A stretch of DNA of 64,000 nt from Crossiella cryophila (GTDB taxonomy: Bacteria > Actinomycetota > Actinomycetes > Mycobacteriales > Pseudonocardiaceae). The stretch is taken from positions 3,493,001-3,557,000 of the forward strand of contig NZ_JACHMH010000001.1 in assembly GCF_014204915.1 (NCBI RefSeq), written 5' to 3'. Made by a program: the position numbers and the translations under genes. The notes beneath the pieces were generated by a model. That model did no database searches and was not told the origin of the DNA. It saw only the letters and a program-made list of their open reading frames with translations. This document shows positions 55,700 to 64,000 of the stretch, piece after piece; the first letter of the stretch is position 1; the number at the start of each line of letters is the position of its first letter.

Positions 55700-55705
55700 C
55701 CCCTC

Positions 55706-55934
55706 GTGTTGGCCGTTCTCGTACCCCGTGTTGGCCGTTGTCGTACACGGTGTTGGCCGAACCGGTACGCCGCTTTGCCAACACACCGTCCCGGATCGGC
55801 CAACACACCGTCCGGATCGGCCAACACACCGTCCGGATCGGCCAACACACCGTCCGGATCGGCCAACACACCGTCCGGATCGGCCAACACACCGTCCGGA
55901 ACGGCCAACACACCGTGCGATAACGGCCAACACT
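55706..55934. repeat. Array of 11 copies of a GTGTTGGC core, 3 in one direction and 8 in the other
   Basis: Between the P450-like gene and the glycosyltransferase, GTGTTGGCCG occurs at 55706, 55728 and 55750 (22-bp spacing). Its reverse complement core GCCAACAC then recurs at 55777, 55799, 55820, 55841, 55862, 55883, 55904 and 55926, spaced 21-22 bp. The inner units are essentially identical and carry CACCGTCCGGATCGG between cores. The two orientations can pair: for example 55750-55759 is complementary to 55797-55806. The 21-bp period equals two helical turns, so every core faces the same side of the DNA. It also keeps all reading frames open, which creates spurious small ORFs. There are no unique spacers, so this is not a CRISPR array. 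The remaining bases up to the ribosome binding site at 55946 show nothing else. Confidence 0.95.
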
Positions 55935-60989: not shown

Positions 60990-62090
60990 CTACCGGCCGA
61001 ATGCCTCCCGCACCCCGGAAATCACCGCGGTGACCTCGTCCTCGGACATGTGCGGCCCGATCGGCAGGCTCAGCACCCGCTCGGCCACCTGATCGGCCAC
61101 CGGCAGCTCCCCCCAGGAGCCGTCGGCGTACGCGGGCGAGCGGTGCACCGCGACCGGGTAGTGGATCAACGTGCCGATCCCCAGCCCCGCCAGGCGTTCC
61201 TGCACCGCGTCCCGCTCAGCGCAGCGCACCACGAACAGGTGCCACACCGGCTCGGCCCACACCGGCACCACCGGCAGCACCAGGTCCTCGATATCGGCCA
61301 GCTCACGCAGGTAGCGGTCGGCGACCTCCTTGCGCCGGTCGTTCCACCGGTCCAGCGCGGGCAGCTTCACCCGCAGCATCGCCGCCTGCAGCTCGTCCAG
61401 GCGGGAGTTGGTCGCCTGGATCTCGTGCTGGTACTTCACCCGCGAGCCGTAGTTGCGCAGCAGCCGCAGCTTGTCGGCCAGCTCCGCCGAGGAGGTCACC
61501 ACCGCCCCGCCGTCACCGAGCGCACCCAGGTTCTTGCCGGGGTAGAAGCTGAACGCGGCCGCGATGGACCCCGCCCCGACCCGGCGACCCTTGTACCGCG
61601 CGCCGTGCGCCTGGGCGGCGTCCTCGACCACGTGCAACCCGTGCTCGGCCGCGATCGCTTCCAGCGCGTCCAGGTCCGCCGGCTGCCCGTACAGGTGCAC
61701 CGGCATGATCGCCTTGGTACGCGGGGTGATGGCCGCCTCGACCTGCTTGGGGTCGATCAGCAGCGTGTCCTCGTCCGGCTCCACCGGCACCGGCGTGGCG
61801 CCGGCCGCCGAGACCGCCAGCCAGCTGGCGATGAAGGTGGCGCTGGGCACGATGACCTCGTCGCCGGGACCGATGTCCAGGGCACGCAGGATGAGTTCCA
61901 GCGCGTCGCAGCCACTGCCGACGGCCACGCAGTGCTCGGCCTCGCAGTAGGCGGCGAACTCGGCCTCGAAGGCGGCGAGTTCGGGCCCGAGCAGGAACCA
62001 GCCGGAGTCCACGACCCGGCGGTAGGCGGCATCCAGTTCGGCGCGCAGTTCCTCATGCGGCGCCTTCAGATCGAGAAAGGGAACAGCCAT
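60990..62090 (-). CDS. PLP-dependent sugar 3-aminotransferase, DegT/DnrJ/EryC1/StrS family (TylB/FdtB/DesV type)
   Basis: The 366-residue length is usual for nucleotide-sugar aminotransferases. The internal aldimine Lys is K186 in [15 protein letters not shown], and the cofactor Asp is in [10 protein letters not shown] (Asp157). It should convert a dTDP-3-keto-6-deoxyhexose to the 3-amino sugar with glutamate as donor. The overlapping upstream gene is a 3,4-ketoisomerase, which makes exactly such a 3-keto substrate. This pairing is that of Tyl1a-TylB, FdtA-FdtB and QdtA-QdtB, and differs from the desosamine route, where DesI and DesII prepare the substrate. The start codon overlaps the ketoisomerase stop by one base (TGATG), implying translational coupling. 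Stereochemistry at C4 of the sugar cannot be decided from sequence. Confidence 0.92.
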
Positions 62091-62536
62091 CAGAGTTTCC
62101 TGGCGTCGCGCTGGAAGTCGGCGTACTCGCGGTAGTAGTCGGCCTCGTCGTAGTGCGTCGAGGCGAGTACCAGACCGACCGCGCCGGGGGAGAAGTTAAT
62201 CAGGTTCCGCCACACCATCGGGCCGACGTAGAGACCGCGACTGGGATTGTCCAGGTGGAAACGGTCCCGGTACTGGCCGTCGTCGACGGTGATGTCGAAC
62301 TTGCCGTGCACCGCGATGATCAGCTGTTCCAGGTTGCGGTGCCCGTGCGCGCCACGGATCGTGGTCGCGGGCAGGTCGTACAGGTAGTACACACGCTTGA
62401 TGTCGAACTTGATCTCCTTGCCCGCCTCCACCACGCACAGGTTGCCGCGCGGGTCGTTGTGCTCGGGCAGGTCGACCATCCGGCAGGGCTCGACCTTGCC
62501 GACGAGAATGCCTTCATCATTTCGGTAGGCGGGCAT
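62090..62536 (-). CDS. dTDP-4-keto-6-deoxyglucose 3,4-ketoisomerase (FdtA/Tyl1a/QdtA, WxcM-like cupin)
   Basis: The protein has 148 residues from the ATG at 62536 ([14 protein letters not shown]), preceded by GGGGG with 6 nt spacing. A longer reading from 62620 adds only Arg-rich residues unlike the family. The cupin shows the family motif [11 protein letters not shown], with the catalytic pair His64 and His66, plus the Tyr-rich strand RVYYLYDLP before it. The enzyme moves the keto group from C4 to C3 of dTDP-6-deoxyhexose, the first committed step to 3-amino sugars such as mycaminose or Fuc3N. Tyl1a-type and FdtA-type enzymes give opposite C4 configurations, and I cannot tell which this is. 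It leads a two-gene minus-strand operon with the aminotransferase. Confidence 0.9.
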
Positions 62537-62601
62537 GAAAAACCCCCAGGGTCTTCGCCGCACAATGCGACGGCGAATGAACGGCGAATTGGTTCCGGAA
62601 A

Positions 62602-62648
62602 ATCGTAGGCCGGGGATCACCCCTACTTTTAACCCCTACGAGCCCCTA
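62602..62648 (-). promoter_or_regulatory. Candidate promoter and operator of the ketoisomerase-aminotransferase operon
   Basis: On the minus strand, three direct copies of TAGGGG (complements of 62620-62625, 62633-62638 and 62643-62648) precede a TACGAT -10-like box at 62602-62607. No good -35 box is present at 17-18 bp, which fits an activator-dependent promoter. One copy forms GGGGATCACCCC, a short inverted repeat. AAAGTAGGGG also occurs upstream of the small secreted protein gene. The nearby LuxR-type regulator is the obvious candidate binder, but this is inference. The rest of the gap down to the ketoisomerase start shows no further feature apart from the ribosome binding site. Confidence 0.45.
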
Positions 62649-62687
62649 AGAACCCATTCGCCATTCACCCACCCCTGGGGGCGTGTC

Positions 62688-62852
62688 AGGTCGTGTTCGG
62701 TGGACCTTGGTCGCGATCGCCGGGCCCAGATCGCCCCTGGCCGCGCCGCCGCGGCGGCCACGTACAACAGCGGTACGAGGCCACCACGGCGACACGACCA
62801 GAAGCAATCTGGACTCCGGCGCTCATCGACCAATACCCACCGAACACGACCT
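62688..62852 (-). repeat. 165-bp imperfect inverted repeat (78-bp stem, 7-nt loop) just after the regulator's stop codon
   Basis: Positions 62688-62765 pair with 62773-62852 around a 7-nt loop at 62766-62772. By hand count 63 of 78 positions are Watson-Crick pairs, including a perfect 16-bp base (AGGTCGTGTTCGGTGG with its complement). There are two single-base bulges (62815, 62826). Of the 15 imperfect pairs, 12 are C/A combinations on the plus strand, which become G-U wobbles in a minus-strand transcript. Only three (at 62706, 62717 and 62760) are true mismatches. The foot of the stem overlaps the TAG stop of the LuxR-type gene (62851-62853). It could be a very long 3' hairpin, a structured RNA or a small palindromic mobile element. 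No coding sequence is credible here. Confidence 0.9.
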
Positions 62853-64000
62853 ACGCGCTTACCGCCGTGTCCGGACTGTGCAGCCCCGACGGCAGATCAG
62901 CCCGCCTGGTCACGTTCAGCTTCTTGTACACCCTGGTCAGATGCTGCTCCACCGTGCTGATCGTGATGCACAGCTTGCTCGCGATCTGCCGGTTGGTGTG
63001 CCCCTGCGCGGCCAGCGCGGCCACCCGCTGTTCGGCGTCGGAGAGCGCGGTCACCTTGTCCGCGTCCACCTCCACCGGCGCGGGCGGGGCCTCGGCCTCG
63101 ACCCCGGCCTGACCCGGCACCAGTTCCTCGCACAGCGGCGCGGCCTGGCATTCCCGCGCCAGGTGCCAGGCCCGGCGCAGGGTCATCCGCGCCTGGGTGG
63201 AGTCCGCCTCGACCTGGGCCTGGCTCAGCTCGCCCAGTGCCCTGGCCAGCTGCAACCGGTCGCCGCCCGCCCTGGACAGCTCGACGGCCTCGGTGAGCAG
63301 GGCCAGTCGCCGGTGCGGTTCGCTGATCGCGGCCAGCAGGCGCAGCGTGACGCCGCGGATCCGCGGCCGGTTGGTGCAGTCCATCGCGAGCTGTTCTTCC
63401 AGCAGCGCCCTGGCCTCGTGGTGCTTGCCCAGCCGGATCAGCACCTCGGCGGCGTCACTGCGCCACGGCACGAACGAGGGCCGGTCCATGCCCCATTCGG
63501 CCATCAGTTCCCCGCACAGCCGGAAGTCGCCCAGCGCCGCGTACAACCGGTCCGCGGCCAGGTGGCACCGGCCGCGCGCGGACAGGTACTGCAGCCCGAA
63601 GGTCGATTCCAGCATGGCGTCGGGGGTGGGCAGGTTGAGCAGTTCCTCGGCCTCGGCCAGCTTGCCCAGTTCGGTCAGCGCCACGATCAGGCACCCCAGG
63701 GGACCCCCTACCGCGACCCCCCAGGTGTGCGGGGTGGTGTGCCGCAGTGCGGCGCGGGCGTGCGCTTCGGCGCCGGGCAGATCGCCCTGGCGCAGGGCCA
63801 TCGCGGCCCGTGCGGAGGCGAACATGGCGTGCCAGCCCGGTGCGTTGCGCTCGGCCGACTCGGCCAGCAGCGCGTCCGCCCAGGGCAGTGCCCGGTCCAG
63901 CCGGTCGGCGAAGTAGAGCACCATCAGCGCGGAGACCAGCGCGTCGAAGGTCTTCTCGGACAGCCGGGAGCCCTGCAGCACCTGCTCGGCGTCCATGATC
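62851..64000 (-). CDS. LuxR-family transcriptional regulator, LAL/PikD-like, N-terminus beyond the window
   Basis: The frame is open to the window edge, so about 382 C-terminal residues are visible. Most of it is helical-repeat sequence rich in Ala and Leu (TPR/MalT-like), for example ALVSALMVLYFADRLDRA and ARALGELSQAQVEADSTQA. The last 70 residues are a LuxR helix-turn-helix: TALSDAEQRVAALAAQGHTNRQIASKLCITIS, then TVEQHLTRVYKKLNV. This layout is that of large ATP-binding LuxR (LAL) regulators, which activate macrolide clusters such as pikromycin. The Walker A/B region that would confirm it lies outside the window. It reads toward the aminosugar genes, and its stop codon touches a long hairpin. 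An apparent Met near the window edge is not necessarily the start. Confidence 0.88.
   Translation of the reverse strand, partial: IMDAEQVLQGSRLSEKTFDALVSALMVLYFADRLDRALPWADALLAESAERNAPGWHAMFASARAAMALRQGDLPGAEAHARAALRHTTPHTWGVAVGGPLGCLIVALTELGKLAEAEELLNLPTPDAMLESTFGLQYLSARGRCHLAADRLYAALGDFRLCGELMAEWGMDRPSFVPWRSDAAEVLIRLGKHHEARALLEEQLAMDCTNRPRIRGVTLRLLAAISEPHRRLALLTEAVELSRAGGDRLQLARALGELSQAQVEADSTQARMTLRRAWHLARECQAAPLCEELVPGQAGVEAEAPPAPVEVDADKVTALSDAEQRVAALAAQGHTNRQIASKLCITISTVEQHLTRVYKKLNVTRRADLPSGLHSPDTAVSA

Follow-up and report, generated by a model that had tools for sequence, protein, structure and literature searches.

A long hairpin at positions 62688–62852 of the window (the whole stretch of 64,000 nt of Crossiella cryophila DNA analysed here) lies between the gene for a regulator and an aminosugar operon, and raises the question of what kind of element it is and why its imperfect pairs are compatible with folding on one strand only. 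The first-pass annotation had described a 78-bp stem with a 7-nt loop, three real mismatches and 12 wobbles confined to the minus strand, and had proposed either a functional RNA made from that strand, possibly controlling the neighbouring genes, or strand-biased C-to-T change. We recounted the pairs in a gapped alignment of the two arms and obtained the same numbers: the arms, of ~78 nt each, enclose a loop at 62766–62772, and on the minus strand they form 63 Watson-Crick and 12 G-U pairs, no A-C pairs and 3 other mismatches. The outermost A-T pair (62688/62852) is part of a flanking TA target duplication, and the element proper is 62689–62851. The features of the locus are:

62689–62851, minus strand (the wobble or G-U strand): palindromic MITE of 163 bp, from copies in the own genome and the genus, empty sites and the arm alignment
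62852–62853, no strand: TA target-site duplication, copy adjoining the regulator gene; the empty site in genomes G003 and G004 is GCATAA
62687–62688, no strand: the other copy of this duplication, now CA when read on the plus strand (minus strand TG) and interpreted as a decayed TA, from the empty sites and 61 of 136 copies with TA on both sides
62689–62706, plus strand: outer 18 bp of one arm, putative transposase-end part; the minus strand ends ...CACGACC; from G-U and A-C counts in 136 copies
62834–62851, minus strand: outer 18 bp of the other arm; the minus strand reads GGTCGTG...; same evidence
62707–62765, minus strand: inner part of the arm forming the 3' side of the minus-strand stem; contains the conserved CTGGGCCCGGCG core; from alignments
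62766–62772, minus strand: apical loop, 7 nt, from the fold
62773–62833, minus strand: inner part of the arm forming the 5' side of the minus-strand stem; contains the conserved GCGCCGGAGTCCAG core; from alignments
62851–63996, minus strand: LuxR-family regulator (host gene), ending inside the element, its frame running past the window; open reading frame, Pfam GerE, E 9.4e-13
62851–62853, minus strand: TAG stop of the LuxR-type regulator, its last base being element sequence; from the ORF table; TAA in G003 and G004, TAG in G002
62090–62536, minus strand: FdtA/WxcM-like sugar isomerase, the next gene downstream; Pfam FdtA, E 9.3e-50
60990–62090, minus strand: DegT/DnrJ/EryC1 aminotransferase of the aminosugar operon; Pfam, E 2.7e-126

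When both strands were folded, as the first-pass annotation had suggested, the minus-strand RNA reached -153.6 kcal/mol (z -17.5) and the plus-strand RNA -119.5 kcal/mol (z -12.6), and none of 200 dinucleotide shuffles was as stable as the fold of either strand. By simple arithmetic, the placement of 12 of 12 wobbles on one strand has p ~0.0005 for a single copy. An intrinsic terminator was ruled out, the stem being without a U-tract: none follows it in 62500–63100, where no promoter match was found either. Similarly, a known Rfam family was ruled out, as nothing in 62000–63200 reached a gathering score and the two hits, of 18.6 and 16.3 bits, lay far under their gathering scores of 45 and 98.

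A search for the element elsewhere in its own genome (G000, 10.06 Mb in one contig) by DNA similarity returned the hairpin itself, five others at 74–97% identity and weak short hits, and 15 copies in this genome were examined. Matches were present in 5 of 5 Crossiella genomes. A core-pattern scan of a named collection returned 10 stretches, all of them from Crossiella sp. SN42 or S99.2. We built a covariance model, R1, from 40 copies; with it, all five genus genomes were matched, with 26 to 97 matches each including doubles on the opposite strand, as were 24 of 60 genomes and 18 of 46 genera in a draw from the family (three of the 24 genomes being Crossiella). A draw from the phylum gave matches in at least 4 of 296 genomes, the own genome included; sensitivity was low and this count is a lower bound, because 9 candidates were scored in each genome (the own genome gave 9 matches there and 28 in the family search).

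Among the matches listed, we took a sample of 136 full-length copies, 113 from the genus and 23 from 20 other genomes, all of them 156–167 nt long and inverted repeats throughout. DNA similarity alone had found 39 of these copies and R1 alone the other 97, so that decayed copies are under-counted, because R1 rewards pairing. Five short copies (L065, L058, L125, L070_3750 and L057) were left out of these counts. Several shortened copies keep the outer stem and are without the tip (L058:2599–2713, 115 nt; L065:2014–2128, 115 nt; L070:3750–3842, 93 nt; L057:4229–4280, 52 nt), and the short copy L058 occupies the same locus as the full-length copy L006. We conclude that the hairpin belongs to a dispersed family, of which it is a single copy, and is not private to the regulator and the aminosugar operon.

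For an empty-site test, the flanks of 12 copies were joined without the element and searched in the five genus genomes. At 10 of the 12 loci, the joined flanks matched across the junction in another genus genome; for L060 and L072, matches elsewhere covered one flank only. We inspected 14 alignments, of which 5 were gapless, 2 (at the window locus) had small gaps beside the site and 7 had indels at or near it. The empty sites read CCTAGG (L242), CCTAGG (L146), CCTAAC (L234), GATAGG (L148) and, in two genomes, GCATAA (window locus); since they carry TA, TA was duplicated on insertion. The counterpart of L069 in G000, CCGAGG, is without TA. TA has been retained on both sides of 61 of the 136 copies; for 43 of the 61, removal of the element gives back CTAG. 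Three loci bear differing hairpins in two species at about the same place (L147/L262, L230/L272 and L231/L273), and the nearest relatives of each such hairpin are found in the genome that carries it or in another genus genome; either reinsertion at a hot spot or replacement by conversion may account for them. In total, the copies behave as a palindromic MITE: they are short and non-coding, and the whole element is an inverted repeat.

The window locus itself is without the insertion in G002, G003 and G004, i.e. in all other genus genomes in which the locus was found (G001 gave no match). The closest relative at this locus is G002, with 96.5% identity; its regulator ends with TAG and is followed by ~730 bp of other DNA. 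Two small overlapping open reading frames stand there in the hairpin's place (L337, 1749–2341); their size and order are toxin-antitoxin-like, and they have no Pfam match.

These observations bear on whether a site-specific RNA control element, such as an attenuator, terminator or processed RNA, evolved here to regulate the regulator and the aminosugar operon. Its position directly behind the stop codon of the regulator and ahead of the operon, and its very stable fold, speak for such a role. However, copies lie at many other loci, the stem has no U-tract, and insertions at stop codons are antisense as often as sense (39 and 39 copies, see below). A private regulator of the operon is ruled out by the empty orthologous loci. 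We therefore consider a site-specific control function very improbable, and the dedicated element that had been suggested between regulator and operon is not upheld.

The position of the copies relative to genes follows from their target. Insertion occurs at TA, often within CTAG, and the element therefore often supplies the TAG stop of a gene; because this stop is supplied in frame at the gene end, the protein is unharmed. A wobble-strand gene takes its TAG stop from the end of the element in 39 of the 136 copies, and a gene of the opposite strand likewise in 39. Among genes called with an in-house codon-position script, TAG accounted for 81 of 115 stops near elements and for 95 of 304 further off. 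With 39 copies each way, the wobble strand is uncoupled from the sense of the host gene. In four Crossiella genomes, A-C pairs amounted to 0.17 per copy in 24 sense-only copies and to 0.15 in 20 antisense-only copies, an equality that a role as 3'-UTR alone does not predict; across all genomes, the values were 0.90 for antisense-only copies (37 in 41) and 0.57 for sense-only copies (17 in 30), a difference that points toward such a role. The uncoupling from sense is the main puzzle: either the copies are too young to have decayed or it is the element, rather than its neighbour, for which the RNA is important.

The one-sidedness of the wobbles extended to the family. The 136 copies contained 1252 G-U and 82 A-C pairs, and G-U exceeded A-C in 133 copies, equalled it in two (L115 and L136) and was fewer in one (L271). 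The 113 genus copies had 1052 G-U and 48 A-C pairs (30 of the 48 in G001), and the 23 copies of the 20 other genomes had 200 and 34. All 39 copies found by DNA similarity alone were G-U-rich (375 versus 11), as were 94 of the 97 copies found only by R1 (877 versus 71), the strand of which was set by R1, itself built on the wobble strand. Wobbles on both strands and a stem lost in relatives, the outcome named in advance as contrary to one-strand function, did not appear: 133 of 136 copies wobble on one and the same homologous strand, and relatives have kept the stem. The wobble split is thus not random decay, as had been surmised from the single copy, and reflects selection for pairing on one strand.

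The two parts of the arms differ. Positions 1–18 held 73 G-U and 10 A-C pairs in 2440 cells, and the remainder held 1179 and 72. Pairing in the outer 18 bp is almost exclusively Watson-Crick, as expected of ends read by a transposase, and the wobbles lie inside. In the covariation search that the annotation had called for, 26 of 69 pairs of the consensus stem were significant, of which 11 fall within the outer 18 bp and 15 further in, and no significant pair lay beyond the stem; the null was tree-based in the manner of R-scape, with parsimony states and 60 replicates. Covariation could come in part from copying of one arm onto the other.

Arm copying by template switching in a palindrome could keep the arms matched with no selection on the folded strand, and in the outer arms changes on both sides of a pair, 227 in number, do exceed those on one side. 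However, copying would be expected to mend A-C and G-U equally, whereas A-C is the rare one; moreover, the most conserved wobble, a single U-G pair, has been kept in 116 of the 136 copies. Arm copying may contribute to the outer arms, and we find it quite improbable as the explanation of the whole pattern.

Changes reconstructed on the tree bear on mutation or editing. On this account, a strand-biased C-to-T process acting on the minus strand would have made the wobbles without any function, and it is true that C/T differences make up most wobbles (the TC kinds mostly outnumber the GA kinds) and that C>T exceeded G>A in unpaired columns (54 versus 36). In the inner stem, however, changes with opposite pairing outcomes were kept unequally: GC-to-GU (C>T opposite G) occurred 125 times and GC-to-AC (G>A opposite C) 19 times, and AU-to-GU (A>G opposite U) occurred 48 times and AU-to-AC (T>C opposite A) 6 times, unlike A>G and T>C in unpaired columns (33 and 39). 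What is retained therefore depends on how a change leaves the pair, whatever the type of substitution. Two further points argue against a mutational bias: wobbles are nearly missing from the outer 18 bp of this very element, and the two orientations relative to the gene at the stop codon are equally frequent. We reject this account, hardly credible to us now, unless the parsimony reconstruction is badly wrong; the C-to-T alternative of the first-pass annotation falls with it.

Copies at the same locus in two species gave a similar picture. In five such pairs, we counted 14 single wobble-type changes, 1 A-C-type change and 3 double compensatory changes; the remainder were 2 transversions breaking or mending a pair, 1 unpaired change and 2 changes unreadable beside a deletion. 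The three informative pairs with a clear stop-codon context all end a sense gene.

The terminal bases divide the family. Of the 136 copies, 19 have IS630-like ends (TAGTG) and 117 have other ends, commonly like CTAGGGCGTGTCC. In their outer 18 bp, family members besides the window copy resemble IS5-family ends, GGGCGTGTCC. We fetched the IS5- and IS630-family transposase loci of the genus, sought their inverted ends and compared the first 20 bases with the hairpins. The IS630-family elements L196 (G004) and L197 (G003) start with GTGTCCTGAGTCG after TA; three hairpins agree with them at 18 of these 20 bases, and 12 of the 136 hairpins share at least 14. The IS5-family element L170 (G003) starts with GGGCGTGTCCTCAAAG after TA; its best hairpins match at 16 of 20 bases, and 26 of 136 reach at least 14. 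These best matches are all flanked by TA. In a background of 10337 TA-adjacent 20-mers of the fetched loci, 14 and 41 reached 14 of 20, the hairpins themselves included. For four insertion sequences of G001, the hairpins at 14 of 20 bases numbered 2 of 136 (L166, best 15), 1 (L205) and 0 (L195 and L212, best 13). The own genome, G000, yielded no IS5 or IS630 gene above the family cut-off. Hairpins with IS630 ends and hairpins with IS5 ends have a common core, 74% identical over ~92 nt. By their first bases, the ends of one subfamily match those of an IS5-family insertion sequence found in the genus, and the ends of the other match those of an IS630-family one.

Selection on a folded single strand does not by itself specify RNA. 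REP/BIME sequences and attC sites are likewise folded palindromes with strand asymmetry; they are single-stranded DNA substrates of Y1 transposases or integrases, and G-T pairs are tolerable in DNA too. A strand-specific DNA hairpin serving transposition or replication, as in REP/IS200-IS605 or attC, would also fit the lack of coupling to host sense, because no transcription is needed. Unlike REP/BIME and attC, the Crossiella subfamilies have ends matching IS5 and IS630 elements, the transposases of which act on double-stranded ends. Moreover, in the one-contig genomes G000, G001 and G004, with dnaA taken as the origin and a circular chromosome assumed, 18 of 55 copies had the wobble strand in leading sense and 37 had it in lagging sense (p 0.014 without correction), so that it is the lagging-strand template less often than the other strand; a hairpin on the lagging template is not favoured. 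We regard a selected DNA hairpin as unlikely.

Altogether, we favour, with a probability of about 0.8, that the hairpin is a non-autonomous palindromic MITE of Crossiella and other family members, the inner hairpin of which is kept paired on one strand. Comparison of loci indicates that the element inserts at TA, often in CTAG, with duplication of TA, and often at a gene end with an in-frame TAG. Matching ends and the same TA/CTAG target suggest that IS5-family transposases move it in trans, and that the sister subfamily with the homologous core is moved by IS630-family transposases; the outer 18 bp would be the part read as DNA. The inner 60 bp would be kept as a one-strand hairpin, most simply an RNA, in which G-U is allowed and A-C is not; the wobbles would break the DNA palindrome yet leave the RNA paired. 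If transcription passes through the wobble strand, the host message would carry the hairpin at its 3' end, and there the hairpin would most likely block exonucleases or be cut by RNase III and so set the message level. DNA-level constraint at the ends together with single-strand constraint inside explains the anatomy, RNA being the simplest single strand. Of the functional minus-strand RNA proposed at first, the part that stands is selection on one strand as an RNA-like single-stranded hairpin, and the part that falls is the dedicated control of this operon. More tentatively, and doubtful in our view, the selfish unit could be the RNA core itself, i.e. a structured RNA gene that moves about on the ends of any TA/CTAG-targeting transposase that happens to be active (IS5 for one subfamily, IS630 for another), its RNA serving its own spread independently of the neighbouring host gene.

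By description, several known repeats are similar. RUP of Streptococcus pneumoniae, an IS630-Spn1 MITE, is given in excerpts of two sources as 107 bp long, with a TA target, ends like those of the host IS630 and a predicted fold with paired ends (PMC2229807, PMC3049150). The Crossiella element is likewise a small MITE with a TA target and ends like an IS630 of the host; it differs in having IS5-ended and IS630-ended subfamilies with a homologous core. Stop-codon placement and one-strand wobbles are features of the Crossiella family that the excerpts compared do not include for RUP (PMC2229807, PMC3049150). Excerpts on ERIC of enterobacteria describe an imperfect palindrome, of a size similar to the Crossiella element, that is present in transcripts and has an orientation-dependent effect on mRNA (PMC3049150, PMC10969869). 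As a control, 10 ERIC stretches, two of which gave identical figures and may be one locus, had 70 G-U pairs on the stronger strand and 47 on the other, flanks included, a mild bias compared with 5–18 and 0–6 G-U per copy in 46 stretches of the Crossiella family. As the mild bias of ERIC is of the same kind, the Crossiella family may not be alone in having a one-strand bias as such. The Correia elements or NEMIS of Neisseria, in the excerpts compared, are also small mobile repeats with terminal inverted repeats, the transcript hairpin of which is cut by RNase III (PMC2229807, PMC10969869); they differ in host and sequence class, and for the Crossiella hairpin RNase III cutting is hypothetical. 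Excerpts of a further source report software-predicted MITEs in Pseudonocardia contigs (PMC12542641), and we found no description of the Crossiella hairpin family in the open-licence PMC literature.

Hairpins of small bacterial transposons are explicable as mere by-products of inverted ends. Here, one element follows two sets of rules: Watson-Crick pairing in the outer 18 bp, the DNA ends, and G-U but not A-C in the inner 60 bp, the folded single strand; moreover, one homologous core bears the ends of two unrelated transposase families. The element is mobile DNA spreading through soil actinobacteria and often landing at gene ends, a clear case of stop-codon insertion that spares the host protein, and its inner hairpin is kept paired on one strand only, as if an RNA copy matters. 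This makes it possible to ask directly if an RNA brought along by small bacterial transposons acts on behalf of the transposon itself.

Apart from the hairpin, the window contains a tandem array at 55777–55933, with 7.4 copies of a 21-bp unit at 96%, directly ahead of an EryCIII-like glycosyltransferase gene. At 55705–55759, 22-bp units resemble those of this array.
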